Both the position numbers and the translations under genes were made by a program. The notes under the pieces were generated by a model. The model was not told the DNA's origin. It did no database searches and saw nothing but the letters and a program-made list of their open reading frames with translations. A stretch of DNA of 64,000 bases from Pseudomonadota bacterium (GTDB taxonomy: Bacteria; Pseudomonadota; Gammaproteobacteria; Steroidobacterales; Steroidobacteraceae): assembly GCA_021777555.1 (NCBI GenBank), contig JAJYDK010000010.1, forward strand, positions 43,259 to 107,258. Direction: 5' to 3'. This document shows positions 7,731-32,874 of this stretch, piece after piece (positions within the stretch are counted from its first letter, which is position 1; each line of letters opens with the position of its first letter).

Positions 7731-7746
7731 GCAGGGGTTCGAGCGC

Positions 7747-9651: not shown

Positions 9652-9680
9652 GAATCGACCCTCCATCAGTATTTTTCAGG

Positions 9681-13565: not shown

Positions 13566-14789
13566 GTGCGACTCCCCCCGGCCCGGCGCATGAGAGTGCA
13601 GGCCGCACGGCACCGCACGGCCCGTTTCCTGCACACACGCGCCTGGTTCCCGCACGTGCCTCTCGCCGTCATCGTGGGCGTGCAGGGGCTGCTGCACATT
13701 CTGTTCGCCTCGGGCTCGCTGCGGCCGCTGCTGGCCACGTGGGCCGGCAGCTCTCCGATCGCCTCGCTCGCCGGCGGCCTCGGCATCCTGCAAATCGGCG
13801 CCGCATCGCATGCGGTCATCGGAGTGCTGCTCATCCTGGTCGCCTTCGGGATGCTGTGGCGGTCGCGGGTCGCCTGGATGCTGGCGCTCGTACTGACGCT
13901 GCTCGCGGTGGTGACCCTGGAGCTCTCGCCGCTCGCGCGGGCCTCGCGTCCGCTCGAGATCTTCGGCGTCGTGCAGCTTCTTCTGCTGCTCGCCTCCCGC
14001 GACAGTTTCACGCGCGCCAATCTCGCCACGGCCACGCTGTTTGCGCTCACGGGACTGCTGTTCACGCTGGGATACGGCACGCTCGGGGCCCTCGCTCTCG
14101 GCGCCGGCTTCAATCCGCCGATCCGCGATCTCACCAACGCCCTGTATTTCGCCGTCGAGACCGTGTCGACCGTGGGGTACGGGGACATTGCGCCGGTCGC
14201 CCCCGAGGCACGGCTGTTCACGATCTCCCTGATCGTGCTCGGTCTGGCGGTGTTCGCCACGGCGCTACCGGCGATCGCCGGCCCCCTGATCGACAAACGT
14301 CTGATGAACCTGCTGCAGCCGGGAAGGAGAAAGAAAGTGAAGCGCGCTTCGCACATCATCGTCGTGGGCGACGGCCCGCTCGCACTGGACACCGCCCGCG
14401 CGCTTTCGGCACGCAATCTCACCGTCACCGTCATCCGCTCCGCAAAGCCCGAAGACGGCGCGCCTCAGCCCGAGGATCTGATCATCGGAGACGGCAGCGA
14501 CGCGCAGGTCCTGCAGCACGCCGGCGTCACCGAGGCCCGCACCGTGCTCGCATTGAGCGAGGACGACGCGTACAACGCCTTCGTCGTGCTGGCTGCCAAA
14601 GAGATGAACCCCTCGCTGCGCACCGTGGCGGCGGTGAGCGACACCCGCAATACCGGCCGCATCGCCCGGACAAGGCCCGATGTGCTGCTCACGCTGCCGC
14701 TGCTCGGCGGAGAGCTGCTGGCCATGGCCTTGAGCGGCGAGCCGATCAACACCGACGCGCTGATCACCCAGCTGATGAAGCTCGGTTAG
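13566..14789 (+). CDS. kch: Kch-type voltage-gated potassium channel
   Basis: A 407-residue inner-membrane channel. Five or six hydrophobic helices lead to the pore loop, whose filter TVGYGD lies at residues 202-207, followed by the inner helix and a cytosolic RCK/TrkA-N domain (HIIVVGDGPLALDTARAL) that gates the pore. Layout and length resemble E. coli Kch (about 417 residues). The GTG at 13566 is chosen because GGAGG lies 8 nt upstream; ATG 13590 has no ribosome site. The stop overlaps the convergent patatin gene by 4 nt. Confidence 0.82.
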   Translation: MRLPPARRMRVQAARHRTARFLHTRAWFPHVPLAVIVGVQGLLHILFASGSLRPLLATWAGSSPIASLAGGLGILQIGAASHAVIGVLLILVAFGMLWRSRVAWMLALVLTLLAVVTLELSPLARASRPLEIFGVVQLLLLLASRDSFTRANLATATLFALTGLLFTLGYGTLGALALGAGFNPPIRDLTNALYFAVETVSTVGYGDIAPVAPEARLFTISLIVLGLAVFATALPAIAGPLIDKRLMNLLQPGRRKKVKRASHIIVVGDGPLALDTARALSARNLTVTVIRSAKPEDGAPQPEDLIIGDGSDAQVLQHAGVTEARTVLALSEDDAYNAFVVLAAKEMNPSLRTVAAVSDTRNTGRIARTRPDVLLTLPLLGGELLAMALSGEPINTDALITQLMKLG

Positions 14790-16030
14790 CGCGAGCGCCG
14801 CGCGACGGTGCCGCCGCCAGCCGGGCACTGCGCCGGATCCCTCTGCTCGCGCGGGCGGGCCTCCATGTTGAGCATGTTGGCCTGCGTCGGCGTCATCCAC
14901 AACAGTCCCTGCGCCGCGCAGCGCTCGCCGTAGGCGAACAGTGCGCGCATGTGCCGCGGACCGAAATCGAAATCGGCGCTGGAGGGGAATCCCGGCGGTA
15001 TCTGCGTGATATGCAACTGCATGCCCAACTGCCGCGCGATCGCCTGCGACTCGACGACCGTCGAGCGCGTCGAGGCGGTTATCCCGGCGGAGATGCTGCG
15101 CGAGATGACATCGACCGTATTGATGGGTGTCCTGTCCGGCGCCGAGGCGAGCTTGCCGTTGATGATGACGTACACATCGGCGCCGCGCAGCGGGGCCAGG
15201 TCCTGCGGCCGCAGCCCCGCGACCAGCGGGAAGATGAACATGGGCGTCGTGACACCACCGTCGACATGCAGCTCATCGTATTGGCGGCCCCCGTCATGCA
15301 CCGGGATGACCACCGGTGGGAACACCCCCGGGACGCTCGCCGAGGCGATGATGACCTTGCGAAACAGCGCCAGCGCGCGCTTGCCGCCCTTTGCCGCGAT
15401 CGCGCCCATGTCCCACAGGACGGTCTCCTGCGAGTCGAGATCGGTCGTTGCAATGATCAGGCGCCGGCCCTTGCTCGTCGCGCGCGCCACCGCGCCCAGC
15501 ATCGCCGGTGTGATGTGGCGGTCGATCAGGTCGCTCAACCGGTCATGCCCGAACCAGCCGAGCGGCGCGAGGATCAGCTGCGTGAAGCGCCATCCGAGGG
15601 AACCGACCGGCGGGTGGCGCCGGGAGTCCTCGATCGTCGCCCGCAATCCGGCATCCCAGGCCGGACCGAGAAATGCGAATGGCGCGATGATCGCGCCGGC
15701 GCTGACGCCCGTCACGAGCTCGAAGCGGGGCCGCTCGTGCGCCTCGGACAGGCCCACGAGCGCGCCGGCCCCGAACGCCCCGCTCGAGCCGCCGCCCGAG
15801 AGCGCGAGGATATTGACGCGCCGTCCCGCGGCGGCGCGGCGAATGCCCTCGAGAAATTGAGGCGCCTGCTCGGTATAGCCGGTGAGATCGGTCGTCACCA
15901 GACGGACCGGAGAGGTATATCCAACCGGCTCGGTGTGATTGATGGCGCTCGGAGGCGGAGGACGCCGCGCCAGCGTGGCGCAGCCGCCGAGCAGCATCAG
16001 AGAGGCAATCCACAGTAGCGTGCCGCGCAT
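14786..16030 (-). CDS. patatin-like phospholipase lipoprotein
   Basis: A 414-residue lipid acyl hydrolase. The N-terminus MRGTLLWIASLMLLGGC is a lipoprotein signal with the acylated Cys at 17. The oxyanion loop is GGGSSGAFG (79-87), the nucleophile motif GVSAG (Ser110), and the catalytic Asp sits in VDGGV. It probably hydrolyses phospholipids or other acyl esters from a membrane anchor in the periplasm. A TTG start at 16060 is possible but would spoil the signal peptide. It lies downstream of the acyl-ligase fusion, 128 bp away, and could share its transcript. Confidence 0.82.
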   Translation of the reverse strand: MRGTLLWIASLMLLGGCATLARRPPPPSAINHTEPVGYTSPVRLVTTDLTGYTEQAPQFLEGIRRAAAGRRVNILALSGGGSSGAFGAGALVGLSEAHERPRFELVTGVSAGAIIAPFAFLGPAWDAGLRATIEDSRRHPPVGSLGWRFTQLILAPLGWFGHDRLSDLIDRHITPAMLGAVARATSKGRRLIIATTDLDSQETVLWDMGAIAAKGGKRALALFRKVIIASASVPGVFPPVVIPVHDGGRQYDELHVDGGVTTPMFIFPLVAGLRPQDLAPLRGADVYVIINGKLASAPDRTPINTVDVISRSISAGITASTRSTVVESQAIARQLGMQLHITQIPPGFPSSADFDFGPRHMRALFAYGERCAAQGLLWMTPTQANMLNMEARPREQRDPAQCPAGGGTVARRSR

Positions 16031-16158
16031 CGAGGTTGTCAGCTCATTGGCTCCCCTCAAGGACTCCCGGTGATTTCCGCTGCCTGAAGCCTGTGCCGTG
16101 CGCGGCCGGATGGGAATAGGCGAAATTGCGGATGCCGGCTCGGCAAGCCCTCAGGCTC

Positions 16159-18999
16159 TCAGGTGAGATCCGGCTCGCCACAATGGCGCAGGATATGCGC
16201 GCGCGCCTCATCCCTCAGGCGCACGGCCGCCGCAAAGACGTCCTCCCGCTCGCCGGCGCAGAGCGGCGGACCGATCACCGCATGGACCGGGGCTCGGCGG
16301 GGCAGCCACCGGCCTTCGCGCATGACGTCCCGGGTCCCGCGTAATGCGACGGCGATGACGGGAACCCGGGCGGCGGCGGCGGCCTGGAAGGCCCCGAGAT
16401 GGAAGGCGCGCAGCCCGGTCACGCCCGTGAACGTGCCCTCTGGAAACAGCACCAGGGAATCTCCGCCTCGAAGCGCTTCGGTGAGCCGCCCGACTTCGGC
16501 GGTGCTCTCTCCGGGGGCGAACCGCTCGATGAACACGGTTCCCATCCTGCGCAGATACCCCCCCAGCACCGGTACCCGCGCGAGCTCCGCCTTCGCCCCG
16601 AAACGATGGCGCTCCCTCAGCAGGGCGCTGATCAGCAGGCTGTCCACATAACTTGCGTGGTTGACCACGAGAACATGGGGCGTTCGCAGATCGCCCTGCC
16701 CCTGCCACGTGGCAACGAGCGGGAAGCGCAACACACGCACAACCCGGGCCGCCGCCCGATGATTGAGCCGCCAGCGCCGCAGCGGACTGCCCACGCATCC
16801 GGTGAGCACCACCGTCGGGAGGGCGAAGACCAGCAGGACACCCCAGGCGCACAGACCGAACATCACGCCCATCGCCCTCTCGAGACGCCGATGCGCCGCG
16901 AGCGAGACGCTGCCGCGGAACAGCCGCAGCATCTGCACGAAGGGGCTTCTCGGAGCCCGTCCGAGCGCGCCCTCCAGGTACGCCTGGCGGGTGGCGGCAC
17001 GACGCAATTTTCCGCTCGAGGTCTTGAGCACGCTGTGCGGCGCGAGCAGCAGAACCTCATCCGCCGGCTCTCCCAGGGTGCTCGTGATGCGCTCCATGAT
17101 CCGTCTCGTCAAGGCGTCGCGTTGCGACGCATCGCTCACGCGCGTTTCCGCCACGACGATGAGCCGCTCAGTGCCGATCGCGTCGGCCATCGCGCCGAAG
17201 ACCGCCACACAGCCCTTGCGGACGCCCTCGATCGCTCCGACTGCGCTTTCGATTTCCTCCGGATAGATGTGCCTCCCGCGCCGGATGACCATGTCCTTGG
17301 CACGGCCGGTGATATAGAGCTCGCCGGCGGCGATGTAGGCCCTGTCGCCGGTATTGCGCCAGTTCCCGCTGAGCAGGCGCGCGGTCGCATCCGCATTTCG
17401 GTAGTAACCGCCGGTGGCGGAAGGACCCTCGAACTGCAGCGCCCCCTCGGTTCGCTCGGCAACCTCGGCGCCCCGCTCATCGACGATGCGCAGACGGTAG
17501 CCGGCCAGCGGCCTGCCGCTTGACACGAAGGCAATCGCCTGCGATGCGCCGACCGGCACCGGTTGGGCACGCCCGCTGCGCGAGAGCAGTTCCCGGTCGA
17601 TCCGATCCACCAGAGGTCCGCGGCCGAGCGGCGGGAAGGTGAGCCCCACGCCCACCTCGGCGAGTCCGTACACCGGCGTCAGCGCCTGCGGAGGCAAGCC
17701 GCACGGGGCGAAGCGCCGCAGAAAGCGCTCGATCGTTTCGGGGTAGACCGGCTCGGCGCCGTTGAAGGCAATGCGTAGCGAGGACAGATCCAGCCCTGTC
17801 AATTCCTCGTCCGACACGCGTTGCGCGGCGAACTCGTAGCCGAAATTGGGCGCGGCGGTCAGCGTGCCGCGATACTCGCCGATCGCGCGCAGCCAGCGCG
17901 CCGGCCGCGCCAGAAACGCGTCCGGCGGCATGAGGACGAGAAGGCAGCCGTGGTAGAGCGAGCCGAGCCAGGCGCCGATCAGTCCCATGTCGTGATAGAG
18001 GGGGAGCCAGCTCACGAAGACATCCCGATCGCTCGCACCGATGGCAGTCCCCATTGCGCGGATGTTCGCCAACAGCTGGCCATGGGTGAGAACGACCCCT
18101 TTCGGCGATCCGGTGCTGCCGGAGGTGTACTGCAACAGGGCGATAGAGTCCCCCGAGAGCGGCATCGGCGCCGGCCCGGCCTCGCCCCCTCGCCCGAGGT
18201 CCGCGACCGTGAGAATGTGGCGCAGCGCGCGCACGCGGGATTTCAGCCAATGGGCCAATCGATGCGCTTCCCGGACGGTGATCAGGGCTTCGGCGCCCGC
18301 GTTGGCCAGGATCTCGGTGTGCCGGCGCACGTGATCCTCCAGCTGGTGACCGTGGGCGGGCGGATAGAGGGGCACGGGGAGGAGTCCCGCGAGCAGCACG
18401 CCAAAGAAGACGTGGAGGTAGTCCACCGAGGTGGGCAACATCAGCGCCACCGGCGCGCCGCGCGAGAGGCCGTACCGGCCGAGCCCGGCGGCGATGGCCC
18501 GCGCGCCCTCGAGAAGCGCCGCGTAGCTCAATTCTCGGGGTCCGGAGTCCCCGAGCACGATGGCATGCGTGGCCCCGGGGTGGCGATCGACTCGCCAACT
18601 CAGCGCTTCTGTCAGGGTGCGCGCCTCATCGGGCGCCGCGCCGTCTGCGCGGGGCAAGGCCCGCACGCTGACCGCGGGAGCGCCGAAGAGGCGGGCCCCG
18701 GCCGGCCGGACGGCCTTCGGGGCATCGCTCAGCACTCTCAGCAGGTCCCCGAGGGTTTCGGCGCCATCGAGCGCCGCCGCGGAAAGCTCGATCCCGAGCG
18801 CCTCCTCGAGCCGATTGACGAGCTCGGCACGCGCAAGGCTGTCGAACCCGAGATCCGCATCGAGACGGCTCCGCGGATGCAGAACGGGGGATGGAGCCTT
18901 GCGATGCAGCTCCCGGTAGAGCGCATCGATCACCGACTCGGCGATCCTCTCCCGGGCGTCAGCGGCCGGCAGCGGATTCGGATCGGGAACGGGCGACAT
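16159..18999 (-). CDS. ACP / fatty acyl-AMP ligase / PlsC acyltransferase fusion
   Basis: A 946-residue three-part enzyme. Residues 15-95 form an acyl carrier protein with the phosphopantetheine site DLGFDSL (Ser54). Residues 130-670 form an AMP-forming ligase (YTSGSTGSPKG at 291-301) whose VPLYPP and RHTEILANAGA text resembles fatty acyl-AMP ligases. Residues 760-946 form a PlsC-type acyltransferase with NHASYVDS (His781, Asp786) and FPEGTFTG. Predicted action: activate a free fatty acid, load it on the internal ACP and hand it to a lysolipid, as in E. coli Aas but with the domains in another order. GGCGGGA lies 6 nt before the ATG. The TolC-like gene ends 26 nt upstream, suggesting one transcript. 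Confidence 0.85.
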   Translation of the reverse strand: MSPVPDPNPLPAADARERIAESVIDALYRELHRKAPSPVLHPRSRLDADLGFDSLARAELVNRLEEALGIELSAAALDGAETLGDLLRVLSDAPKAVRPAGARLFGAPAVSVRALPRADGAAPDEARTLTEALSWRVDRHPGATHAIVLGDSGPRELSYAALLEGARAIAAGLGRYGLSRGAPVALMLPTSVDYLHVFFGVLLAGLLPVPLYPPAHGHQLEDHVRRHTEILANAGAEALITVREAHRLAHWLKSRVRALRHILTVADLGRGGEAGPAPMPLSGDSIALLQYTSGSTGSPKGVVLTHGQLLANIRAMGTAIGASDRDVFVSWLPLYHDMGLIGAWLGSLYHGCLLVLMPPDAFLARPARWLRAIGEYRGTLTAAPNFGYEFAAQRVSDEELTGLDLSSLRIAFNGAEPVYPETIERFLRRFAPCGLPPQALTPVYGLAEVGVGLTFPPLGRGPLVDRIDRELLSRSGRAQPVPVGASQAIAFVSSGRPLAGYRLRIVDERGAEVAERTEGALQFEGPSATGGYYRNADATARLLSGNWRNTGDRAYIAAGELYITGRAKDMVIRRGRHIYPEEIESAVGAIEGVRKGCVAVFGAMADAIGTERLIVVAETRVSDASQRDALTRRIMERITSTLGEPADEVLLLAPHSVLKTSSGKLRRAATRQAYLEGALGRAPRSPFVQMLRLFRGSVSLAAHRRLERAMGVMFGLCAWGVLLVFALPTVVLTGCVGSPLRRWRLNHRAAARVVRVLRFPLVATWQGQGDLRTPHVLVVNHASYVDSLLISALLRERHRFGAKAELARVPVLGGYLRRMGTVFIERFAPGESTAEVGRLTEALRGGDSLVLFPEGTFTGVTGLRAFHLGAFQAAAAARVPVIAVALRGTRDVMREGRWLPRRAPVHAVIGPPLCAGEREDVFAAAVRLRDEARAHILRHCGEPDLT

Positions 19000-19025
19000 C
19001 GGATCCCGCCTGCCCGCGGCGCGCC

Positions 19026-20324
19026 TCAGAGCGCCCCTGCCGCATAAGCCAGTCGCAATCGCGAGAGCGCCTCATCGAGCACCGCGTCGTCGTAGTTCTG
19101 CGCCGCACGGGTCTCGAGGGTGACGGCCTCGAGGACCTGGGTGTTGGAGGCGAGGCCCGCTCCGTACAACTCCCGCGAGATGCGCAGGTTCTCGGCCGCC
19201 TGCGCCGTCGCCGAGCGCGAGGCGGCCAGGCGGGCGCGGGCCGCCGAGAGCGCCAGCCAGTCGGCGCGCACCTCGAGCTCGATGCGCGAACGCAGATCCT
19301 CGAGCCGCCGCCGCTCCGCGCGGCTCTGCGCCCGCAAGGCATCGGCCTCGTTCGCGGCCTGCCCGCCGTCGAAGAGCTTCCAGGTGAGTCCCACGCCCAC
19401 CGTCGAGAAGTTCTCGCGATTGAGGATCTGGTTGTCGAAATGCGTGACTCCGCCTACCGCGGCAAGCTGCGGCAGTCGCTTCGCGGTCTCGGCGCGCGCC
19501 CGCGAGGCAAGCGAGCCGGCCTCGGAGGCGAGCGCGGTGAGTTCGTTGCGCGAGGCGAGCGCCCGCTGCACGAGCGAGGTGAGCGGCAGATCATCGACCG
19601 CAAAGGCCGGAAGCTCCTGTGCGAGCCGCGGCACGCGCTCGAGCGGCTCTCCGATCAGGCGGTTGTAGTCGGCCCGCGCGATGTCCACCGCATTGGCGGC
19701 GCTCACCCGTCCCTCCTCGGCATTGGCCAAGGCGACTTCGGCGGCGAGCAGATCGCTCTTGGCCACCAGCTGGCGGTGAAACTTGGCCTGCACGTCCCGC
19801 AGGTGCGCATGCAGGCTCGTGACGGCCGAGTCGGCCACCTTGAGGCGGCTCTGAGCCCGCAGCACCCCGACATAGGCCTGCGCCACCGCCAGCTTCAGGT
19901 CCGCGACCGTGGCCCGCTCGTCAGCGGAGGCGGCCGAGACTCCGGACTTTGCGGCATCGATCCCCGCCGTGATCGCCCCGCCGCTGTAGATCGGGATCTT
20001 CATCTGCACCGTGCCGCTGACATACTGATTGTTGCGGAAGATGGGACCCGAACGGAATGACAGCGCGGGCGTCACCACATCGAGCTCCGGCGCCTGGCCG
20101 AGATGCGTGTAACCGACATTGGCGCTCACGCTCGGCCAGCGTGCATCGCGCGCCGCGCGCTCCCGGTCGCGAGCGCTCTGCACCTCCGCCACGGCCGCCG
20201 CCAAGCTCTGATTGCGCGCAATGGCCATCCGCCAGGCCTGTTGCAGTGTCTCGGAAAGCGCGGGCCTCGCCGCAACCGCCATCACCAGCGCCGCGATGAT
20301 GCCGCGTGCACGCGATGATCTCAT
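19026..20324 (-). CDS. TolC-family outer membrane efflux protein, SQR cluster
   Basis: A 432-residue outer-membrane factor with a signal peptide (GIIAALVMAVAARPALS). It shows the TolC duplicated pattern of long helices and short strands, for example NQSLAAAVAEVQSARDRERA near the N-terminus. It should form the trimeric exit duct for the RND pump encoded two genes upstream. Its ATG overlaps the SQR stop as ATGA, so translation is coupled. In-frame codons further upstream lie inside the SQR gene and are rejected. Confidence 0.85.
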   Translation of the reverse strand: MRSSRARGIIAALVMAVAARPALSETLQQAWRMAIARNQSLAAAVAEVQSARDRERAARDARWPSVSANVGYTHLGQAPELDVVTPALSFRSGPIFRNNQYVSGTVQMKIPIYSGGAITAGIDAAKSGVSAASADERATVADLKLAVAQAYVGVLRAQSRLKVADSAVTSLHAHLRDVQAKFHRQLVAKSDLLAAEVALANAEEGRVSAANAVDIARADYNRLIGEPLERVPRLAQELPAFAVDDLPLTSLVQRALASRNELTALASEAGSLASRARAETAKRLPQLAAVGGVTHFDNQILNRENFSTVGVGLTWKLFDGGQAANEADALRAQSRAERRRLEDLRSRIELEVRADWLALSAARARLAASRSATAQAAENLRISRELYGAGLASNTQVLEAVTLETRAAQNYDDAVLDEALSRLRLAYAAGAL

Positions 20325-21601
20325 GGCTTGGTGCCCTTGAGCGAAACGATGCCGAGGAGCTTGAGCACGTATTTCTCGTAGACGGGCGTAGTCGATCCGG
20401 TGCGGATCTTGCGCAGGAAGTACTTCTCGAACGCGATCTTGCCAAGATGCACCCACTTGCCGACCTTTGCCCAGGTGACATTGCGCGGCGGGATCTCCGG
20501 CAGCGCCACGAACGCCGCTCCGGTGTCGCCGAAGTCGGCGAGGCATATGGCATTCCAGGTCGCCCGCGCGTTCGCCGCCCGCCCGCCGATATCCGCGGCG
20601 ACGTTCTCGCAGATTGCCGTCACCATCGACTCGATCATGTAGCCGGTCTTCGGCGCACCGGTCGGCACCGGGGTCGCCTCGACGGGAGGGATGGCCACGC
20701 ACACCCCGGCCGAGAATATGTTGGGGTACTTCGTGGATCGCTGGTGCTCGTCGATGAGCACGAAGCCGCGCGCGTTGCACAGCCCGGGAACGGCGGCCAC
20801 CGCATCCACGCCCTTGAACGCCGGCAGCACCATCGCGAACCGGAAGGCCACCTGATGCTCCTTTCGAGGCTTGCCGTCCTCGTCATGCTCGAGCACCGTC
20901 ATGGACTCCCCGCCGACGGCGCTCACCTTGGCGTTGGTGATCCATTTGATGTGGCGCTGGCGAAGCTCGGATTCCATCAGGCCCTTGCTGTCGCCCACGC
21001 CGCCGAGGCCCATGTGCCCGATATACGGCTCGCTCGTGACAAAGGTCATCGGCACGCGGTCGCGGATCTTGCGCTTGCGAAGATCTGCATCGACGATCAT
21101 CGCGAACTCATACGCCGGTCCGAAGCAACTCGCCCCCTGTGCCGCCCCGATCACGACCGGTCCCGGCCGCTCGAGGAACAGCTGGTATCTCTCCCAGGCG
21201 CGCACGGCGTGCTCCTGGGTGCACACCGATTCCGTATGCCCATCGGGCCCGAGGCCCGGCACCTCATCGAAGGCGAGCTTCGGTCCCGTCGCGATCACCA
21301 GATAGTCGTAATCGAGGGAGCGGCCGTCTGCGAGCGTGAGCGTGCGCCGCTCGGCGTCGATCGAGACGACCGGGTGGTCGATCCAGTCGATTCCCTTGGC
21401 CGCGAGCGGCTCGCGCAGCGCGATGCGGGTCTTGGCGAGATTCCGCCAGCCTACGGCCACCCAGGGATTGGACGGAGTGAACTCAAAGTATGGCGACGAT
21501 CCGATGAGCGTGACGCGGTGCGCCTTGCTGAGACGCTTGCGCATCTCGTAGGCGCACGGCACTCCGCCCAGGCCCGCACCGATGATGGCGACATGTGCCA
21601 T
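20321..21601 (-). CDS. sqr: type I sulfide:quinone oxidoreductase
   Basis: A 426-residue membrane-associated flavoprotein that oxidises sulfide to polysulfide or persulfide and reduces quinone. From memory the sequence aligns almost throughout with Acidithiobacillus ferrooxidans SQR (PYFEFTPSNPW, ATGPKLAFDEVPG, ASCFGPAYEFAM, VPTGAPKTGYMIESM). All three redox cysteines are present at 127, 159 and 353 (128, 160 and 356 in the reference). FAD binds at IIGAGLGG. The start at 21601 aligns with the family (MAHV). The gene lies between the RND pump and the TolC-like gene, and upstream a persulfide-sensor-like regulator faces the cluster, so sulfide control is likely. Confidence 0.92.
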   Translation of the reverse strand: MAHVAIIGAGLGGVPCAYEMRKRLSKAHRVTLIGSSPYFEFTPSNPWVAVGWRNLAKTRIALREPLAAKGIDWIDHPVVSIDAERRTLTLADGRSLDYDYLVIATGPKLAFDEVPGLGPDGHTESVCTQEHAVRAWERYQLFLERPGPVVIGAAQGASCFGPAYEFAMIVDADLRKRKIRDRVPMTFVTSEPYIGHMGLGGVGDSKGLMESELRQRHIKWITNAKVSAVGGESMTVLEHDEDGKPRKEHQVAFRFAMVLPAFKGVDAVAAVPGLCNARGFVLIDEHQRSTKYPNIFSAGVCVAIPPVEATPVPTGAPKTGYMIESMVTAICENVAADIGGRAANARATWNAICLADFGDTGAAFVALPEIPPRNVTWAKVGKWVHLGKIAFEKYFLRKIRTGSTTPVYEKYVLKLLGIVSLKGTKP

Positions 21602-21671
21602 GGCAACCCCCAGGAGAGACGATCTCGCGTGCAAGTGACGTGAATGGGAACCGGGATGGCGCGGCCGTCAC

Positions 21672-24600
21672 TCATGAGCCTGCGCCCCGAGCGCGCAGCG
21701 CGCGCGCTTCCTTCCGCTTCAGGTAGGCGTAATAGAGGACCGGGATCACGATCAATGTCAGCAGCGTCGAGACGAAGATGCCGAACAGGAGCGACACCGC
21801 GAGCCCGTTGAAGATCGGGTCGGGAAGGATGAACATGGCGCCGAGCATGGCCGCGACCGCCGTCAGCGCGATCGGCTTGGCGCGGATCGCTCCGGCGCGC
21901 ACCACCGCCTCCTCGATGGGGAAGCCGGCGCGCACCGCCCCGTCGATGAAATCGACCAGCAGGATGGAATTGCGCACGATGATGCCCGCGAGAGCGATCA
22001 TGCCGATCATCGATGTGGCCGTGAACTGATCCCCGAGCAGCGCATGCCCGGGCAGCACGCCGATGATGGTGAGCGGAATCGGCGCCATGATGATGAGCGG
22101 CACCATGTAGGAGCCGAACTGCGCCACGATCAGCAGATAGATCAGCGCGAGACCCACCGAGTAGGCGATTCCCATGTCGCGGAAGGTCTCGTAGGTGATC
22201 TGCCACTCCCCGCTCCATTTGAGCGAGAAGCGGCTCGGATTGGACGGAACACTGATGAATCGCTGCTCGAGCGGCTGGCCGGCGACGGTGAGCCGGCGCA
22301 GCCTCGCGGAGATGTCGAACATGCCATAGAGCGGGCTGTCGAGCGGTCCGGCCATGTCCCCCATGACATAGGTCACCGGCATGAGGTCCTTGTGATAGAT
22401 CGCCCCGTCCCACACGCTCCTGTGCACGCGCACCAGCTCCGAGAGCGGCACCAGCGCCCCATCCGCGGCCCGCACCCGCAGCGCCAGCAGTCTCGTCATT
22501 CGCGCCTGGTCGGCCGGAGAAAGCTCGAGCCTCACCGGGATCAATTCGCGCTCGCGGCCGATGTGCACGTAGGTCGCATCGAAGCCCGAGAGCGCCATGG
22601 CGAGCGTGCGGGTGATCTGCGCCTGCGAGACCCCGAGGAGCGAAGCCTTCTGCCGCTCGACATCGATCACGAGCCTCCTCGAGCGCGCATCGACGCTGTC
22701 ATCCGTATCGACGATGTCGGGCGTCGTGTCGAACACCTTGCGGATGCGCAGCGCGAGCTGCCGCTGCATGGCATAGCTCGGCCCGAAGATCTCCGCGACG
22801 ATGGGCGCGAGAACCGGCGGTCCGGGCGGCACTTCGACCACCTGCAACGAGGCGCCGAACCTGCGGGCCACCGCCGCGAGCGCCGGCCGGACTGCGAGCG
22901 CGATGGCGTGACTCTGGCGATGACGCTTGTCCTTGGGGATCAGTTCCACGGCGATCTCGCCGTATCGCGGGCCCTGGCGCAGGTAGTACTGGCGCACCAG
23001 GCCGTTGAAATTCACCGGCGCATGGGTCCCGGCGTACACCTGGTAGTCGGTCACCTCCGGCACCCGCGCGATCACCTGCGCGAGCGCATCGAGCACGCGG
23101 GCGGTTGTTTCGACGGTCGTGCCGACCGGCATCTCCACCACCACCTCGAATTCCGATTTGTTGTCGAAGGGCAGCATCTTCATGACCACGGTCTTGGTCA
23201 CGACGAGGCCCACCGCGACCACGATCGCCGCGACGATCGCCCAATAGAGCCGGTGGCGCCGCTTGCGCCCGGCGGGGCCGGCGAGAAACGGCCCGACCAG
23301 GCGTTGAAACAGCCTGAGCAGCGGCGGGTCCGCGGCGTGCTCCGTGGCCGGTATGTGGCTGTGCGAGAGGAGCTTGCGGCACAGCCACGGGGTGAACATC
23401 AGCGCCACGCCGAGCGAGATCAACATGCCGGAGCTGGCGTTGATCGGGATGGGGCTCATGTAGGGCCCCATCAGACCGCCGACGAAGGCCATCGGCAGGA
23501 GCGCGGCGATCACCGTGAAGGTGGCGAGAATGGTCGGTCCGCCGACCTCATCGACCGCCACAGGAATGATGTCGCTCAGCGTGCCGCCGCCCAGGCGCGC
23601 GTGCCGATGGATGTTCTCGACCACGACGATCGCATCGTCCACCAGGATGCCGATCGAGAAGATGAGCGCGAACAGCGACACCCTGTTGATGGTGAAGCCC
23701 CAGGCCCAGGAGGCGAACAGCGTCGCCGCCAGGGTCACCCCGACCGCCGCGCCCACCACCAGCGCCTCGCGCCGGCCCATGGTGAGAATGACGAGCAGCA
23801 CGACCGATACGGTGGCGAAGATGAGCTTCTCGATGAGCTTCATCGCCTTCTCATCGGCCGTATGCCCGTAGTCGCGCGTGACCGTGACGTTCACACCCGC
23901 CGGGATGTAGGTTCCGCGCAGCTGCTGCACCCGCTTGATCACCTCATCGGCGATGGTGCTGGCGTTGGTGCCGGTCTTCTTGGCGATCTCGATGGTGACG
24001 GCCGGCGCGTAGCTCACCTTGGTCAGGTCGCGCGTGGCCGCGCCCGGCCCCGTGCCGAACCATACGTACGACTGCGGCGCATCGGGCGCGAAGGCGACGT
24101 CTGCAACGTCGGCCAGGTACACCGGCCGCCCCGCGTGCACGCCGACCACCAGATGCGCCACCTCCTCCCGGCCGGCGAGAAACTGTCCGGCCTCAACCGG
24201 GATCACCCGGTTGCCGCCGATGAGCGAGCCGGCCTGAAGTGTCAGGTTGGCCGCCTCGAGAGAATGCGCGATATCGCCCGGGGCGAGTCCGTAGACGGCG
24301 AGCTTGCTCGGATCGAGACGCACGCGCACGAGGCTTTGGGGGGCTCCGATCACCGCGACCCGGCGTGTTCCGGGCACTCGCTTCAGCTGCGTCTCGATCG
24401 AGCGGGCGACCTGCCCGAGCTGGTACGAGCCGCGCTGCCCGTCCTTCGTCCACAAAGTGAGCGTCAGGATGGGCACATCGTCGATGCCCATCGGGCGCAC
24501 CAGCGGCCGCAGGATGCCGGAGTTGGCGGGCCACAGGTCGCGATGCGAGTAGATCGCGTTGTACAGCCGCACGATGGCCGTGGTGCGCGACTGGCCCACC

Positions 24601-24908
24601 TCGTATTCCACCGTGAGGACCGCGAGCCCCGGTCGCGAGACCGAATAGATGTGTTTGACTCCGCGGATCTCCCCCAGCACCTGCTCCATGGGCGTGGTCA
24701 CCTGGCGCTCCACCTGCCTCGAAGAGGCGCCCGGGAACGGGATGAATACGTTGGCGAACGTGACCTTGATCTGAGGGTCTTCCTCGCGCGGGGTGATGGC
24801 GAGGGCGAACAGCCCCATGGCCACCGCCAGGATCGCGAGCAGCGGGGTGATCTGGTTGTGCAGGAAGCGGCTCGCGAGGCGGCCGCTGAAGCCGAGCTGC
24901 CCGCTCAT
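21672..24908 (-). CDS. RND efflux pump inner-membrane subunit, SQR cluster
   Basis: A 1078-residue proton-driven transporter of the HAE type. The TM4 segment GILVDDAIVVVENIHRH carries the Asp pair of drug exporters rather than the metal-exporter pattern. Two large periplasmic loops follow TM1 and TM7. The start MSGQLGFSGRL at 24908 follows a GGGGGG ribosome site. It is third in a leftward run: DUF2892 protein, membrane-fusion protein, this pump, SQR, TolC-like protein. The cargo is unknown; the company of SQR suggests sulfur compounds or products of sulfide stress, which is inference only. Confidence 0.88.
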   Translation of the reverse strand: MSGQLGFSGRLASRFLHNQITPLLAILAVAMGLFALAITPREEDPQIKVTFANVFIPFPGASSRQVERQVTTPMEQVLGEIRGVKHIYSVSRPGLAVLTVEYEVGQSRTTAIVRLYNAIYSHRDLWPANSGILRPLVRPMGIDDVPILTLTLWTKDGQRGSYQLGQVARSIETQLKRVPGTRRVAVIGAPQSLVRVRLDPSKLAVYGLAPGDIAHSLEAANLTLQAGSLIGGNRVIPVEAGQFLAGREEVAHLVVGVHAGRPVYLADVADVAFAPDAPQSYVWFGTGPGAATRDLTKVSYAPAVTIEIAKKTGTNASTIADEVIKRVQQLRGTYIPAGVNVTVTRDYGHTADEKAMKLIEKLIFATVSVVLLVILTMGRREALVVGAAVGVTLAATLFASWAWGFTINRVSLFALIFSIGILVDDAIVVVENIHRHARLGGGTLSDIIPVAVDEVGGPTILATFTVIAALLPMAFVGGLMGPYMSPIPINASSGMLISLGVALMFTPWLCRKLLSHSHIPATEHAADPPLLRLFQRLVGPFLAGPAGRKRRHRLYWAIVAAIVVAVGLVVTKTVVMKMLPFDNKSEFEVVVEMPVGTTVETTARVLDALAQVIARVPEVTDYQVYAGTHAPVNFNGLVRQYYLRQGPRYGEIAVELIPKDKRHRQSHAIALAVRPALAAVARRFGASLQVVEVPPGPPVLAPIVAEIFGPSYAMQRQLALRIRKVFDTTPDIVDTDDSVDARSRRLVIDVERQKASLLGVSQAQITRTLAMALSGFDATYVHIGRERELIPVRLELSPADQARMTRLLALRVRAADGALVPLSELVRVHRSVWDGAIYHKDLMPVTYVMGDMAGPLDSPLYGMFDISARLRRLTVAGQPLEQRFISVPSNPSRFSLKWSGEWQITYETFRDMGIAYSVGLALIYLLIVAQFGSYMVPLIIMAPIPLTIIGVLPGHALLGDQFTATSMIGMIALAGIIVRNSILLVDFIDGAVRAGFPIEEAVVRAGAIRAKPIALTAVAAMLGAMFILPDPIFNGLAVSLLFGIFVSTLLTLIVIPVLYYAYLKRKEARALRARGAGS

Positions 24909-24945
24909 GCCGGGCCCCCGGCGCGACCGCGCGCCGCCTCGGCGC

Positions 24946-26019
24946 TCATCGCGGCGTCCCTGACACGCCCGGGAAGGGCTCGAGGCGCTGCATGGCCGCG
25001 AGCGGCTCGAGCGCAACGCGATCGCCCGCCACCAGTCCGGAGAGCACCTCGATGCGATCTCCGAGGCGCTCGCCCAGGCGCACCTGCTGCATCAGCACGT
25101 TGCCGTTGGGCTGGACGAGGTAGACCGCCGTGACTTCGCTGCGGCGCACGATGGCCCGTGCCGGCACGAGCAGCGCGGCGCTTCGCCCGGTGGTGAACGC
25201 CACCTGCACGATCTCGCCGGGATAAAGACCGGTGATCTCGTTCGGCAGCCTGAGTCGGACGGTGAACGTGTTGGACAGCGAGGATGCCACCGGGAAGACG
25301 GTCACGTGCGTCGCGGGAATCGCCCGGCCCTCGAGAAACACGGTACCGGCGTTCGCCTTGCGCACCGCGCCGGCGATCGACTGGGGGATGCTCACCACGA
25401 CACGCAGATCCCCCAGCGAGGCCACTTTCATCAGGGGCGTTCCCGGGGCCACCGCCTCGCCGGCCTGCACCAGCCGTTCGGCGATCACTCCCGCATAGGG
25501 CGCCCGTATCTGCGTGTAGGCGACGCCCTCGCCGGCGCTGACGACCGCGGCCCGGGCCGCATTCAGCTGGGCCACCGCGGCGTCTCGATCGGCCGTCACC
25601 CGGTCGAAGTCCGCCTTCGGCACCACCTGCCGCTCGTACATGTCGCGAATGCGTCGATAGCGCGTCTGCGCCTCCGTGGCCCTGGCCTCGGCCGCGTGCA
25701 ACGCGGCCCGCGCCTGAGTCAGATCGGCGCGCTGGATGGTGGAGCGGAGCCGCATGAGCAACGCGCCAGCGGGCACGACATCGTCCACATCGTGATAGAC
25801 GGATGCGACACGCCCGGAGGTCTGGGCGGTCACCGTCGCCCGGTTGACCGCCTGGACGACACCATCGAAGCGCCGTTGCGCGGAGGTCTGCTCGGGCTCG
25901 ACCAGCACCGATGCGAGGGACGCCTCGCTCCGGGCGGGCGGCGGAGCATGCCGCGCGCCGCATCCCGAGAGCACCCCTGCCGCCAGAATGGCGGCCAGCC
26001 TGAACCGTGACCCTCTCAT
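24946..26019 (-). CDS. RND membrane-fusion lipoprotein, SQR cluster
   Basis: A 357-residue periplasmic adaptor. The signal ends at the lipobox LSGC, which would anchor it to the inner membrane. A biotinyl-lipoyl-like half (TAQTSGRVASVYHDVDD), a helical hairpin around residues 95-150, and the second lipoyl half with IRAPYAGVIAERLVQAGEAV follow in order. It should link the RND pump to the TolC-like protein. The start at 26019 is fixed by the lipoprotein signal; the gene follows the DUF2892 stop by 26 nt and precedes the pump by 37 nt. Confidence 0.87.
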   Translation of the reverse strand: MRGSRFRLAAILAAGVLSGCGARHAPPPARSEASLASVLVEPEQTSAQRRFDGVVQAVNRATVTAQTSGRVASVYHDVDDVVPAGALLMRLRSTIQRADLTQARAALHAAEARATEAQTRYRRIRDMYERQVVPKADFDRVTADRDAAVAQLNAARAAVVSAGEGVAYTQIRAPYAGVIAERLVQAGEAVAPGTPLMKVASLGDLRVVVSIPQSIAGAVRKANAGTVFLEGRAIPATHVTVFPVASSLSNTFTVRLRLPNEITGLYPGEIVQVAFTTGRSAALLVPARAIVRRSEVTAVYLVQPNGNVLMQQVRLGERLGDRIEVLSGLVAGDRVALEPLAAMQRLEPFPGVSGTPR

Positions 26020-26045
26020 GTGTCGCCCGCCTTGCGTGGTCCGCC

Positions 26046-26246
26046 TCAGAACGCTGCGCCCGGCTTGACGCCGAGCCGTTTCAGCAACATCGCGAGCGGG
26101 CAGAGGCCGGTGAATGCCGCCTGCAGCAGGTTCGCGCCCACGAAAAGCGGCAGCAGCAGCCACCACGGATTGACCAGCCAGCCGAGCAGAGTCCCGATGA
26201 GCACCACTGTCCCGGCGAAGACGAATACAACGCGATCGATTGACAT
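26046..26246 (-). CDS. DUF2892 / YgaP-like two-helix membrane protein
   Basis: A 66-residue inner-membrane protein with two hydrophobic segments around LIGTLLGWLVNPWWLLLPLF and the conserved NLLQAAFTGLCPLAMLLKRLG. This is the membrane module found at the C-terminus of the YgaP rhodanese and as a stand-alone gene in sulfide operons. The Cys in GLCP is conserved in the family. It is the first gene of the leftward SQR/RND run, directly behind the operator-bearing promoter. The precise role is unknown. Confidence 0.82.
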   Translation of the reverse strand: MSIDRVVFVFAGTVVLIGTLLGWLVNPWWLLLPLFVGANLLQAAFTGLCPLAMLLKRLGVKPGAAF

Positions 26247-26302
26247 AGCGGCCTCCAGTGCGGCGCGGCGGACGGCACGATTCGCTCCGTCCCGACCGGA
26301 TA

Positions 26303-26330
26303 AGTATATTAGGATACGCTAATTTAGCAA
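26303..26330 (-). promoter_or_regulatory. promoter of the SQR/RND operon
   Basis: On the minus strand TTGCTA (26330-26325) and TATACT (26308-26303) are 16 nt apart. The inverted repeat ATTAG-6-CTAAT lies in the spacer, so a bound regulator would block RNA polymerase. Confidence 0.6.
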
Positions 26331-26342
26331 ATGGTAATTTAG
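26308..26342. promoter_or_regulatory. probable SqrR/BigR-type operator
   Basis: ATTAG (26308-26312) and CTAAT (26319-26323) form a perfect inverted repeat with a 6-nt spacer, the size expected for an ArsR-family dimer. TAATTTAG occurs twice (26320-26327, 26335-26342), placing a second half-site near the regulator's own promoter. The AT-rich patch stands out in GC-rich surroundings. Confidence 0.6.
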
Positions 26343-26366
26343 TAAGGTGTGCGGTAAACTGCGGTC

Positions 26367-26735
26367 GTGATCAAAGATCGCAAGTCCTCCCCAGCGATGC
26401 GCCGCCGGCGCAAAGCGCATCCCGTCGTCTCGCTCGGGCGCGCCGCGCGCGACCTGCAGCCGCATTGCACCCAGGCGGCGGGCGTTCTGCGGGCGCTCGC
26501 CAATGAACAGCGGCTGGTGATCCTGTGCCATCTCGTACCCGGGCCTCTCTCGGTGGGCCAGCTCAATGAGTGCGTACCGCTCAGCCAGTCGGCCCTGTCG
26601 CAGCATCTGGCGGTGCTGCGACAGGCCGCGGTCGTGCGCACGGAGCGGCAGTCGCAGACGGTGTACTACTCCCTGACTCCCGGCCTCGTCACGCGGCTGC
26701 TCGGCGTGCTGCACGAGGAATTTTGCGGCGTCTGA
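26367..26735 (+). CDS. ArsR-family persulfide sensor, SqrR/BigR/YgaV type
   Basis: A 122-residue winged-helix repressor (ALANEQRLVILCHLV, then the recognition region LSQSALSQHLAVLRQ). Cys54 (ILC) and Cys120 (EEFC) are 66 residues apart, the same spacing I recall for Cys41/Cys107 of SqrR and Cys42/Cys108 of BigR, which form a tetrasulfide link with reactive sulfur and release DNA. Metal ligands of classic ArsR proteins are absent. A possible -10, TAAACT (26355-26360), would start RNA almost at the GTG, so the mRNA may be leaderless; ATG 26397 is the alternative start. It is divergent from the SQR/RND operon. Confidence 0.85.
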   Translation: MIKDRKSSPAMRRRRKAHPVVSLGRAARDLQPHCTQAAGVLRALANEQRLVILCHLVPGPLSVGQLNECVPLSQSALSQHLAVLRQAAVVRTERQSQTVYYSLTPGLVTRLLGVLHEEFCGV

Positions 26736-26786: not shown

Positions 26787-27851
26787 ATGCCTTCCCTGTT
26801 CGACCCGCTCGTCATGGGCGAGCTCACGCTCCCCAACCGCATCGTCATGGCGCCTCTGACGCGCTCACGGGCAGATGGGCGGCGCGTGCCGAACGGCCTG
26901 ATGATCGAGTACTACCGTCAGCGAGCCTCGGCGGGCCTGATCATCTCGGAGGCCACGGTGGTCACCCCCATGGGCGTTGGCTATGCGGACACCCCGGGAA
27001 TCTGGTCGGATGAGCAGGTCGCGGGCTGGCGCGAGGTGACCGGCGCGGTGCATGAGGCGGGGGGGAGGATCTTCCTGCAGCTGTGGCACGTCGGCAGGGT
27101 GTCGCATCCCCTGTTTCTCGACGGCGAGCGTCCGGTGGCCCCAAGCGCCGTCGCGCCGCAGGGACACGTCAGCCTGGTCAGGCCCAAGACCCCTTATGTC
27201 ATACCGCGTGCGCTCGGGCGCGAGGAGATCCCCGGGATCATCGCCGCCTTCGCGCATGGAGCGAGAAATGCCGAGCGCGCCGGCTTCGACGGTGTGGAGC
27301 TGCACGGCGCCAATGGGTACCTGCTCGACCAGTTCCTGCAGGACGGCTCCAATCGCCGTGATGACGACTACGGTGGCTCGGTGGAAAACCGCGCCCGGCT
27401 CCTGCTCGAAGCGACCGATGCGGCGATCGCGGTCTGGGGTCCCGGGCGGGTCGGCGTGCATCTGGCGCCGCGGGGCGATTCCCATTCCATGGGGGATTCC
27501 GATCGCGCGGCGACCTTCGGCCACGTGGTCCGGGAACTCGCCCGGCGCAGGATCGCTTTCCTGTTCGCGCGCGAGCATCCCGAAGGCGGGCGGCTCGGCC
27601 CGCAGCTGAAGACCGCCTTCGGCGGCGTTTACATCGCCAACGAGAAGCTGACGCACGCGAGCGCCCAGGACCTGCTCGACCGCGGCGAAGCCGACGCTGT
27701 GGCCTTCGGCAAGCTCTTCATCGCCAATCCCGACCTCGTCGAGCGCTTCAGGAGCGGCGCGCCGCTGAATGACCCCAGGCCGGAGCTGTTCTACGGCGGC
27801 GGCCCGGCGGGCTATACCGACTACCCTGTCCTGCCGGAAACCGAAGCCTAG
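26787..27851 (+). CDS. nemA: old yellow enzyme, NemA-type ene reductase
   Basis: A 354-residue FMN-dependent TIM-barrel enzyme that reduces activated C=C bonds with NAD(P)H. Seen: MAPLTRSRADGRRVPN at the start, QLWHVGRVSHP, and the substrate-binding pair in ELHGANGYLLDQFLQDGSNRR. DYGGSVENRARLLLE and YIANEKLT are also typical. Length fits NemA/XenB. It follows the persulfide sensor by 51 bp on the same strand; it might be co-regulated, since this class also responds to thiol stress, but that is conjecture. Confidence 0.9.
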   Translation: MPSLFDPLVMGELTLPNRIVMAPLTRSRADGRRVPNGLMIEYYRQRASAGLIISEATVVTPMGVGYADTPGIWSDEQVAGWREVTGAVHEAGGRIFLQLWHVGRVSHPLFLDGERPVAPSAVAPQGHVSLVRPKTPYVIPRALGREEIPGIIAAFAHGARNAERAGFDGVELHGANGYLLDQFLQDGSNRRDDDYGGSVENRARLLLEATDAAIAVWGPGRVGVHLAPRGDSHSMGDSDRAATFGHVVRELARRRIAFLFAREHPEGGRLGPQLKTAFGGVYIANEKLTHASAQDLLDRGEADAVAFGKLFIANPDLVERFRSGAPLNDPRPELFYGGGPAGYTDYPVLPETEA

Positions 27852-27877
27852 AGAGGCGCCGGCTCGGCGCCATCGCC

Positions 27878-28732
27878 ATGAGCGGCCGCGAATCCATGCC
27901 AAGCGCTCCGATCCGTCCCGGGGAGCCGGTGCGCCTCACCGAGAAGGTCTGGCGCCTCACCTGCGCCAACCCCGGCACGATGACCGGCCCCGGAACCAAC
28001 ACCTACCTGGTCGGCGCGGCGGACGAGTGGACCGTCATCGACCCGGGGCCGGTGAGCGAGCGGCACCTGCACGCGATGCTCGCCGCCGCGCCGGGCATAC
28101 AGCGCATCCTCGTCACGCACACCCATCCGGATCACTCTCCGGGCGCGCTGGCATTGCATGGGGCGACGCGCGCCGACCGGGTCGGACGCCGCAGTCCCCA
28201 CCCGCGCTCGCAGGACCCGAGCTTCGACCCCCAGCGCGAGCCCGCCGACGGGGACCGTCTGCGGCTCGGGGCGGGGATCACGATCCGTGTCCTGCACACC
28301 CCGGGCCACGCCTCCAACCATCTGTGCTACCTGTTGGAGGAGGAACGGCTGCTGTTCACGGGCGATCACGTGATCCAGGGCTCCACCGTGGTCATCGACC
28401 CGCCGGATGGCGACATGAGCGCCTACCTTGCCTCCCTGGAACGGCTGCTCGCAGAAGATCTGGCCTTTCTCGCACCCGGCCACGGCACCCTGATACCGCA
28501 GCCTCACGAGGCGGTGCGCGCCCTCATCCGCCACCGCCTGCGGCGCGAAGCCAAGGTGCTCGCGAGATTGCAGGACTCCGCCCCGCTGGCGCTCGACTCC
28601 CTGCTCACCCGCGCCTATGACGATGTGCCGGCCCATCTGCATCCGCTTGCCGAGCGATCCCTGCTCGCGCATCTTTTGAAGCTCGAAGCCGAGGGACTCG
28701 CGCGTCAGCTCAACGGCATCTGGAGTGCCTGA
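27878..28732 (+). CDS. metallo-beta-lactamase-fold hydrolase, LACTB2-like
   Basis: A 284-residue two-zinc hydrolase. The motif HTHPDH (81-86) gives His81, His83, Asp85 and His86, with further ligands in HTPGHASNHLCYLL and FTGDHVIQG. The C-terminal winged-helix tail (EGLARQLNGIW) and the opening NPGTMTGPGTNTYLVG are typical of LACTB2/RNase-Z-related proteins. The substrate could be RNA or a thioester. It follows the ene reductase by 26 nt and converges on the second RND gene with 6 bp between stops. Confidence 0.82.
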   Translation: MSGRESMPSAPIRPGEPVRLTEKVWRLTCANPGTMTGPGTNTYLVGAADEWTVIDPGPVSERHLHAMLAAAPGIQRILVTHTHPDHSPGALALHGATRADRVGRRSPHPRSQDPSFDPQREPADGDRLRLGAGITIRVLHTPGHASNHLCYLLEEERLLFTGDHVIQGSTVVIDPPDGDMSAYLASLERLLAEDLAFLAPGHGTLIPQPHEAVRALIRHRLRREAKVLARLQDSAPLALDSLLTRAYDDVPAHLHPLAERSLLAHLLKLEAEGLARQLNGIWSA

Positions 28733-31700: not shown

Positions 31701-31807
31701 AGGCCGACCGGGAGTGAGATGGCCGCGAACGCCCCGGCCAGCGCCAGCGCGAATGCGATGGTGATCAGCGAGCGCCGATGATGCTCGACCCAGGATGAGA
31801 AGCTCAC
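28739..31807 (-). CDS. RND efflux pump inner-membrane subunit, second system
   Basis: A 1022-residue RND transporter. It has PVGLFPVTSFPRIRVEVNAG after TM1, the TM4 segment GLLIDDVIVMIEHIARR (HAE-type Asp pair), and the second-half motif GMVMIVGISTEMAIFLISEY. The start overlaps the membrane-fusion gene stop as ATGA. With the next two genes it forms a full tripartite exporter, and it is divergent from a two-component pair. The substrate is not readable; a cupredoxin gene sits beyond the sensor kinase, so a copper link is possible but unproven. Confidence 0.87.
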   Translation of the reverse strand: MSFSSWVEHHRRSLITIAFALALAGAFAAISLPVGLFPVTSFPRIRVEVNAGSMPARQMLVDVTEPLERVARAVPGAQDVSSTTSRGAAEIFVDFPWGSNMNQALLAVDAAFAQKLPALPQGTTYDIIQMSPNIIMPFVSYALISKTVPPTALRQLAEYQIVPLLTGIPGVRRVGVLGGETPEVQVSVDPQKLKAYGLTLADVSQALASTNTISAVGRLEDNDLMFLAIGNNAFTSIRSVRNVVLHTGQNGIVRLADLAKISMGTVPQWLLVDDDGKPAVTFDVYQQDTADSLTLAGEVAKKLSVFMKTQPKAIHLYKWYDQTQLVGSSIAALEEAILIGLVFAGIVLFAFLRNWRVTLVAMMVVPLSVLITVLLLSLLGMTFNIMTLGGIAAAIGLLIDDVIVMIEHIARRTGVPGIEDPHKTVLTAAREFLSPLLGSSLATIIIFIPLAFLSGITGAFFKFLSLTMASALIISLILTALAVPLLARGLIDFARFEDPSHGKETWLKRIHGRALGKLADRPMLLVPALAVLVALGYIAYRNVGSGFLPRMDEGGFVLDYQAAPGTSLGETNRELEEVEGILKHDPYVYTYSRRTGAGLGGDLNEAYQGDFFVRLIDPSKRPDIWKVMDEVTRKVTDQVPGLDFDTHQLMGDMIGDMVGRRQPVVISLSAKDPAMLPVVANRVADAIGKVPGIEPASVNNGVIPAGDALDIHVDPAAAALEGMTVADVRSQVYHYLHGKVVTKYLGTVQDIGVRLWLDPPEGHIYRDQLASLPIHSPNGQVLRLGTVAKVRFVAGQPELTRDNLAQIVPVTAQIGGGHDLGSTMAAVQRVLEKPGLLPAGVYYTLGGQYRQQQMAIHGMIKVFGAAVVAEIILLLFLYETFSIPVIIIASSLFSTLAVFIGLWLTHVELNITAMMGMVMIVGISTEMAIFLISEYQELLKTMSPRKAIYEAALNRLRPITMSTLAMILALVPLGAAISGSGDQMLQPLAIAIIAGALVQLPLVLLAMPVLVGLVERRWPAAR

Positions 31808-32865: not shown

Positions 32866-32874
32866 GGCTTTCTC

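Follow-up and report, generated by a model that had tools for sequence, protein, structure and literature searches.

How does the sulfur made by sulfide:quinone oxidoreductase (SQR) leave a bacterial cell, and which neighbouring genes would take part? The question is raised by a stretch of 64,000 nucleotides from a member of the Steroidobacteraceae (hereafter the window; positions 43,259 to 107,258 of contig JAJYDK010000010.1, assembly GCA_021777555.1), in which an SQR gene lies in a run of genes for an RND efflux pump and for lipid-acting enzymes, facing the gene of an ArsR-family repressor. An initial annotation of this sequence had joined these genes into one persulfide-controlled system, linking sulfide oxidation to export of a sulfur product and to membrane-lipid repair. 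To our knowledge, there is no settled route for SQR-made sulfur out of bacterial cells, and the question becomes testable with a small conserved block that pairs a single sensor and a single operator-like site with a single pump. The probable answer, in our reading, is that an ArsR repressor, whose release is predicted to be triggered by persulfide, stands opposite a conserved run of genes for DUF2892, a membrane fusion protein (MFP), RND, SQR and TolC, which would join sulfide oxidation to the efflux of a toxic sulfur by-product, the lipid genes being recent insertions that are carried along.

The genome is a 4.0-Mb draft in 117 contigs, and start codons were picked among in-frame candidates. 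SQR, RND and MFP are adjacent on one strand of the window. Reading along the minus strand away from the repressor, the run encodes a DUF2892/YgaP-like transmembrane protein of 66 residues with a single cysteine, C49 (26046-26246; PF11127, Pfam YgaP-like_TM, 43.1 bits against a cut-off of 25.3), the RND periplasmic adaptor or MFP, with a lipobox-like Cys20 (24946-26019; TIGR01730, 209 bits, over cut-off), an HAE-1-like RND inner-membrane pump of 1078 residues (21672-24908; PF00873, 487.5 bits), the SQR of 426 residues (20321-21601), a TolC-family outer-membrane channel (19026-20324; PF02321, 181.3 bits), a fusion of 946 residues that joins an acyl carrier protein (ACP), a fatty acyl-AMP ligase and a PlsC-type acyltransferase (16159-18999; PF00550, PF00501 and PF01553), and a patatin-like phospholipase (14786-16030). 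The repressor gene is divergent from the first of these, on the plus strand (26367-26735), with a spacing of 120 nt. The successive gaps from DUF2892 to patatin are 26, 37, 70, -4 (the ATGA overlap of SQR and TolC), 26 and 128 nt, and this spacing suggests that the DUF2892-to-TolC run may be made as a single transcript. The patatin stop codon overlaps that of a convergent ion-channel gene. All genes named in the initial annotation are present where it had placed them and in the order given (DUF2892-MFP-RND-SQR-TolC-fusion, facing ArsR), and its ATGA overlap and 26-nt gap between TolC and fusion are exact; the patatin gene, which lies inside the interval that it described, was missing from its list.

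The SQR matches the solved chain 3sz0 over its full length with 547 bits (Pyr_redox_2, 75.3 bits), and its Cys127, Cys159 and Cys353 (138, 170 and 364 in the longer open reading frame) align with cysteines of that chain, which we take to be the redox cysteines. By sequence, the window protein has the FAD disulfide-oxidoreductase fold and the three cysteines expected of a sulfide:quinone oxidoreductase. It differs from the solved group of 3sz0 and 3t31, presumably from Acidithiobacillus ferrooxidans, in being encoded within a pump operon. The RND protein belongs to the AcrB/AcrD/AcrF family, with 6vej as its nearest solved chain (235 bits), and the features of an HAE-1 tripartite pump are found side by side: an RND permease with the Asp pair of transmembrane segment 4 (TM4; VDDA motif), an adaptor and a TolC-family channel. 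An RNS motif stands in the TM10 region, presumably the place of the AcrB lysine, and the 6vej alignment has an identical RNS there.

The core of this arrangement is conserved in close relatives. SQR was sought in 99 genomes including the window's own, the relatives being draft genomes, and was found in 30, 27 of these being further members of the window's genus. The loci of 28 of the 29 other SQR genomes were compared (26 from the same genus, one from the same family and one from the same order); a partial SQR (G035) and two loci with a distant 27% paralogue alone (L065, L066) were left out. In 27 of the 28 loci SQR is preceded by RND, and in 24 it is followed by TolC, contig ends cutting off some of the remaining loci. 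Where 4 kb or more of sequence precedes RND (20 loci), MFP and DUF2892 are found in all 20 and an ArsR scoring 45 bits or higher in 16. The initial annotation had called for a search for the same gene order in other genomes: the ArsR/DUF2892/MFP/RND/SQR/TolC core does recur, whereas the intact fusion does not in the loci compared. The SQR of L062 is split into two pieces, with a stop between them.

Linkage extends beyond the genus. The best 80 named SQR loci were taken from a longer match list, so near relatives are over-represented in the linkage rate; seven of the 80 (L087-L092 and L098) repeat genomes of the first set and were kept within the 80. For the 42 loci flanked by 5 kb or more on both sides, an RND with 50% identity or higher is found in 31, DUF2892 in 29, an ArsR-like protein (weak matches included) in 27, and all three together in 24. 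An ArsR gene beside an SQR-DUF2892-MFP-RND run is seen in a member of the Lysobacteraceae (L113), in Thermomonas (L120, L158) and in Arenimonas maotaiensis (L161), whose locus also has the strict operator palindrome described below; the order MFP-SQR-RND-DUF2892 is seen in Uliginosibacterium (L155) and a member of the Rhodocyclaceae (L156), and Acidovorax loci, too, have SQR linked to RND in an order unlike that of the window. Arenimonas, Thermomonas and Acidovorax are relatives with names and strain numbers in which the question can be put to the test.

The repressor scores over cut-off with both Pfam HTH_5 (35.5 bits) and NCBIfam HTH_metalloreg (83.6 bits), and its nearest solved chains are HlyU, NolR, SqrR-type proteins and BigR. 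It has cysteines at positions 34, 54, 69 and 120, and Cys54 and Cys120, at the 66-residue spacing that the initial annotation had given exactly, align with two cysteines of the solved ArsR chain 13ct/6o8l, which we take to be the SqrR of Rhodobacter capsulatus. Among 37 distinct ArsR matches of at least 45 bits, counted after six duplicate loci had been taken out, 35 have both cysteines; in the matches checked, C34 is variable. Release of this repressor from DNA by persulfide is predicted on these grounds. SqrR, BigR, SoxR, sHdrR and HlyU are described as ArsR repressors that respond to sulfane sulfur (PMC12423496, PMC5823870), and the window protein shares with them the ArsR fold, the aligned cysteine pair and the sulfur-gene neighbours. 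The 2025 study of sHdrR and SoxR reports that such regulators appear to act on RND pump genes too (PMC12423496); RND pumps are there named among the likely targets of the group, and the run that faces the window ArsR includes one. As an observation on the window protein itself, its Cys69 occurs in no other ArsR match checked, most of which have Arg there.

A candidate operator lies where such a repressor would be expected to act. The palindrome ATTAGCGTATCCTAAT (ATTAG-N6-CTAAT; 26308-26323) sits in the spacer of a promoter-like TTGCTA-16-TATACT upstream of DUF2892 (26303-26330, minus strand), between the -35 TTGCTA and the -10 TATACT and touching the latter. ATTAG-N6-CTAAT occurs once in the 4.0-Mb genome, at this promoter, and a reversed control occurs not at all. 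The single site fits a dedicated local repressor. A wide regulon sharing the exact operator is ruled out by the same count, degenerate sites not having been sought. After removal of all seven duplicate loci, the regions upstream of ArsR number 35, and 21 of them, that of the window among them, hold the strict form TTAG-N5..8-CTAA, where shuffles would give 0.135, a significance that is overstated because the regions are related sequences; a relaxed form is found in three further regions. A palindrome finder set for long arms returned nothing useful. The region upstream of ArsR in L056 holds two overlapping TTAG-N6-CTAA matches. Taken with the three SQR cysteines and the ArsR pair, the single operator-like palindrome at the promoter bears out what had been proposed about this side of the locus, namely a SqrR/BigR-like ArsR beside an SQR-RND operon.

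From these elements a working mechanism can be proposed. Without sulfide, the repressor would sit on ATTAG-N6-CTAAT in the -35/-10 spacer and block RNA polymerase, as the position of the site suggests. When sulfide is present, SQR would oxidise it at the membrane to sulfane sulfur and pass the electrons to quinone, a step to be expected because it is established for the SQR family and the three cysteines are present in the window enzyme. Sulfane sulfur would then bridge Cys54 and Cys120 and free the repressor, as is established for relatives such as SoxR and predicted for the window ArsR, and the operon would be transcribed as the one message that its spacing suggests. The MFP-RND-TolC pump would in turn expel reactive sulfur species, or a toxin derived from them, as its putative substrate. 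Among SQR oxidation, ArsR release and pump efflux, strong homology stands behind the SQR step and no other; export of a sulfur product by the pump is possible.

The lipid genes call for a separate account. All three domains of the fusion are covered and their motifs are present (DSL in the ACP; TSGSTG, HASYVD and FPEGT), the ligase being nearest to fatty acyl-AMP ligases among solved relatives; the patatin has a lipobox-like start and GGG and GVSAG motifs (PF01734, 75.8 bits). By its domain content, the fusion would activate fatty acids onto its own ACP and transfer them to a lysolipid. Aas-type acyl-ACP synthetase/lysophospholipid acyltransferases combine fatty-acid activation on ACP and a PlsC-type transferase in one protein, as the fusion does, whereas the fusion has the order ACP-ligase-PlsC, an ACP of its own and a ligase of the acyl-AMP type; it scores far under the cut-offs of acyl-ACP--phospholipid acyltransferase models.

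Beside SQR, this fusion is intact in the window genome alone. No match of at least 50 bits was found in the 28 relatives' SQR loci, and none of the 22 that are readable past TolC (at least 500 bases beyond it; at least 4.9 kb in 19) holds an intact copy. The locus L037 of genome G014, whose SQR is 97% identical, has two pieces of the fusion between TolC and patatin, of 24 and 23 residues (62.5 and 60.9% identity); they come from the ligase domain, their frames are offset by one base, and they are likely the remnant of a lost fusion gene. The same locus holds the sole close patatin among the relatives (89%); identities for the others found in the 99 genomes are 34-46%, and none of these sits at this site. 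In 13 of the 22 readable relatives, TolC is followed within 300 bp by a convergent ion-channel gene, in 11 of them within 20 bp as measured between hit ends; L044 has a run of N between the two. The sequence at the end of the window patatin matches the end of the relatives' channel gene. Genome G022 (SQR 95%) breaks off inside TolC and is therefore uninformative on the insertion. Most likely, the two lipid genes entered the gap between TolC and the channel gene before the lineages of the window genome and G014 parted, with later decay of the fusion on the G014 side.

Relatives of the fusion are found at other places. Of 148 genomes searched, 14 further members of the genus carry one at 55-63% identity and G082, from another family, carries one at 50%, the remaining matches being mostly of the ligase region alone; SQR is present as well in 10 of these 14, on a different contig from the fusion. 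The 15 fusion loci and the ligase-only L212 (7.0-19.5 kb) hold no match to SQR, MFP, TolC, ArsR, DUF2892 or patatin, with one weak 25% RND match in L205, and no partner common to all 16 was seen among the neighbours. L197, L198, L199 and L204 each have an upstream gene that falls into the same cluster, and in the one scanned it encodes a BON-domain protein. In the best 80 named SQR loci, no fusion match reaches 200 bits and three have weak ligase matches of 24-28%. The family is a large one, with at least 7888 proteins matching at E <=1e-150 and all three domains present in 119 of 120 among the matches listed, the query included. The fusion is probably a lineage-specific neighbour that stands outside the core, and the claim of a membrane-lipid repair link finds no support: the lack of a conserved neighbourhood elsewhere, which had been named beforehand as grounds for giving it up, is what was found for the lipid part.

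Among the papers listed by a search of titles and abstract openings, none deals with the complete seven genes, nor with an RND protein that exports the SQR product; PMC11267869, PMC10128140 and PMC11631085 have no bearing on the matter. The opinion of the initial annotation that no description of the complete set as one system exists holds in this sense for the seven genes, yet fails for their SQR-RND-MFP core, which was published in 2017 as the Azospira suillum PS operon Dsui_3440-3443, comprising an unknown gene, RND, SQR and MFP (PMC5358917). There, the operon was a Bar-seq hit and was strongly expressed under H2S-oxidising conditions (PMC5358917). Both operons hold SQR, RND, MFP and a further gene; the Azospira order is MFP-SQR-RND-unknown, and no TolC, ArsR or lipid gene is mentioned for it in the available text. 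From the gene order in L155 and L156, we infer that the two operons are homologous. The window core is not a new kind of operon, because an SQR-RND-MFP operon had already been published for Azospira.

Several other explanations have to be weighed against this reading. That all the genes form one system under persulfide control, with SQR, sulfur export and lipid repair by the fusion and patatin, would accord with the gap of just 26 nt between TolC and fusion, in which no promoter-like site is seen, with the intact motifs of the two lipid enzymes, a plausible cut-and-refill pair, and with an insertion that is likely older than the split from G014, which keeps the patatin and a scrap of the fusion. 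We hold it to be very improbable, given that an intact fusion appears in none of the 28 relatives' loci (22 readable) and reaches 200 bits in none of the best 80 named ones, that it has decayed in the closest readable relative (SQR 97%), that its large family is located elsewhere in the loci examined, and that the lipobox would place patatin outside the inner membrane while the fusion would be cytosolic. Lipid repair as a part of the system is rejected, the fusion being intact in none of these 28 loci and the patatin present in one. Close spacing alone is no proof of a shared system, since an operon-like fusion sits here in one lineage only, and fusion and patatin would at most be expressed by read-through. 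It also seems unlikely that the ArsR protein senses a metal or some other signal rather than persulfide: ArsR proteins are diverse sensors, this one has extra cysteines at 34 and 69, and its score under the BigR model is below cut-off, whereas C54 and C120 are kept in 35 of the 37 distinct matches while C34 varies and C69 is found among them in the window ArsR alone, both cysteines have counterparts in the alignment with solved chains of SqrR type and of HlyU, and the gene stands beside the SQR operon.

A weightier rival is that the pump serves against stress or toxicants in general, exporting hydrophobic compounds or metal-sulfide complexes, and would merely be co-regulated with SQR and carry no sulfur product; we regard it as a serious contender, though short of probable. 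The Azospira authors themselves propose metal-sulfide toxicity (PMC5358917), and the pump path is nearly free of cysteines. The distribution of the pump was followed in a class-wide sample of 276 genomes, with the two best RND candidates per genome scored and counts read by hand, so that the RND figures are lower bounds. The RND clade (at least 52% identity) is found in at least 82 genomes, 34 of which have no window-type SQR, a count by which the idea of an SQR-specific RND subfamily is ruled out. What speaks for a tie to sulfide oxidation is the RND-SQR linkage in 27 of the 28 relatives' SQR loci, the one dedicated operator-like site, and co-occurrence in genomes, the RND clade being present in 48 of the 83 genomes with window-type SQR and in 34 of the 193 others (Fisher odds ratio 6.4, p 7e-11, a rough test in which RND counts are lower bounds and phylogeny is ignored). 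The reading of a persulfide-released repressor over a sulfide oxidation and by-product efflux operon is the one that we keep, as probable. A narrower form of it, in which ArsR, DUF2892, MFP, RND, SQR and TolC make up a persulfide-gated exporter of SQR's own polysulfide or zero-valent sulfur out of the cell, is a tentative and rather doubtful proposition; if true, such an exporter would be a route for extracellular sulfur, for which no described transporter appears among the papers listed in our searches.

A number of observations weigh against the reading that we keep. On the side of the sensor, the repressor reaches 75.5 bits with the curated BigR equivalog NF040642, where the cut-off is 155, and it is labelled SqrR/BigR-like rather than BigR for this reason; this score and its operator-like site ATTAG-N6-CTAAT set it apart from the SqrR/BigR group. 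The two ArsR matches without the cysteine pair score weakly (45-46 bits), and the count covers matches of at least 45 bits, weaker ones, mostly from betaproteobacterial loci, falling outside it. Neither the strict nor the relaxed palindrome is found in 11 of the 35 upstream regions, including that of L046 from the same genus, and TTGCTA-16-TATACT, the sole sigma-70-like site between 13000 and 27000, does not exceed chance in number, 1.2 being expected from shuffles. On the side of distribution, SQR is present in just 27 of the 57 other genomes of the genus, many of them incomplete, and the same-genus loci L059 and L060 are arranged differently, with RND and SQR standing 1.8 kb apart and without a TolC match. 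RND of at least 50% is missing from 11 of the 42 well-flanked named loci, and class-wide, RND clade and SQR occur together in at least 48 genomes and within 5 kb of each other in 5, the window genome included; two more genomes (G265, G280) have a 43-44% RND near SQR. From this rare linkage it follows that the pump is not SQR-specific across the class and that the linked block is a trait of particular lineages. On the side of function, the pump path has one cysteine in RND, none in TolC and the lipobox Cys alone in MFP, so that a thiol relay through the pump is ruled out. Deletion of the Azospira operon left the rate of perchlorate-linked H2S oxidation unchanged and is not decisive (PMC5358917). 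Export would not be required to clear persulfide, because a putative Blh-like dioxygenase is encoded elsewhere in the genome, by an unlinked gene whose product matches the dioxygenase part of Blh with 404 bits (under the cut-off of 625); its top matches among solved chains (427, 394 and 391 bits) have the metallo-beta-lactamase (MBL) fold, the human persulfide dioxygenase ETHE1 scoring 88.5 bits. SoxY had no match in the window's own genome, a result made uninformative by a control that was likewise unmatched in 14 of 14 genomes.

Further genes lie around the operon. Two genes come after ArsR on its own strand: 26787-27851 codes for a flavin oxidoreductase of the old-yellow-enzyme type, and 27878-28732 for an MBL-fold hydrolase that carries a BLACT_WH domain. 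Since the flavin oxidoreductase stays beside ArsR in many relatives of the genus, these genes (26787-28732) may form a second arm of the same switch. Adjoining them on the minus strand is a second RND set, consisting of RND, MFP and an outer-membrane efflux protein (28739-34623), whose RND gene is in place in many relatives. Farther away, a flavoprotein of 1170 residues (37787-41299) resembles PRK06567, a glutamate-synthase-beta-like/hydroxylase model, with 762 bits, below its cut-off of 1072, and two tandem genes for M61-type peptidases lie on the minus strand at 5734-9666.

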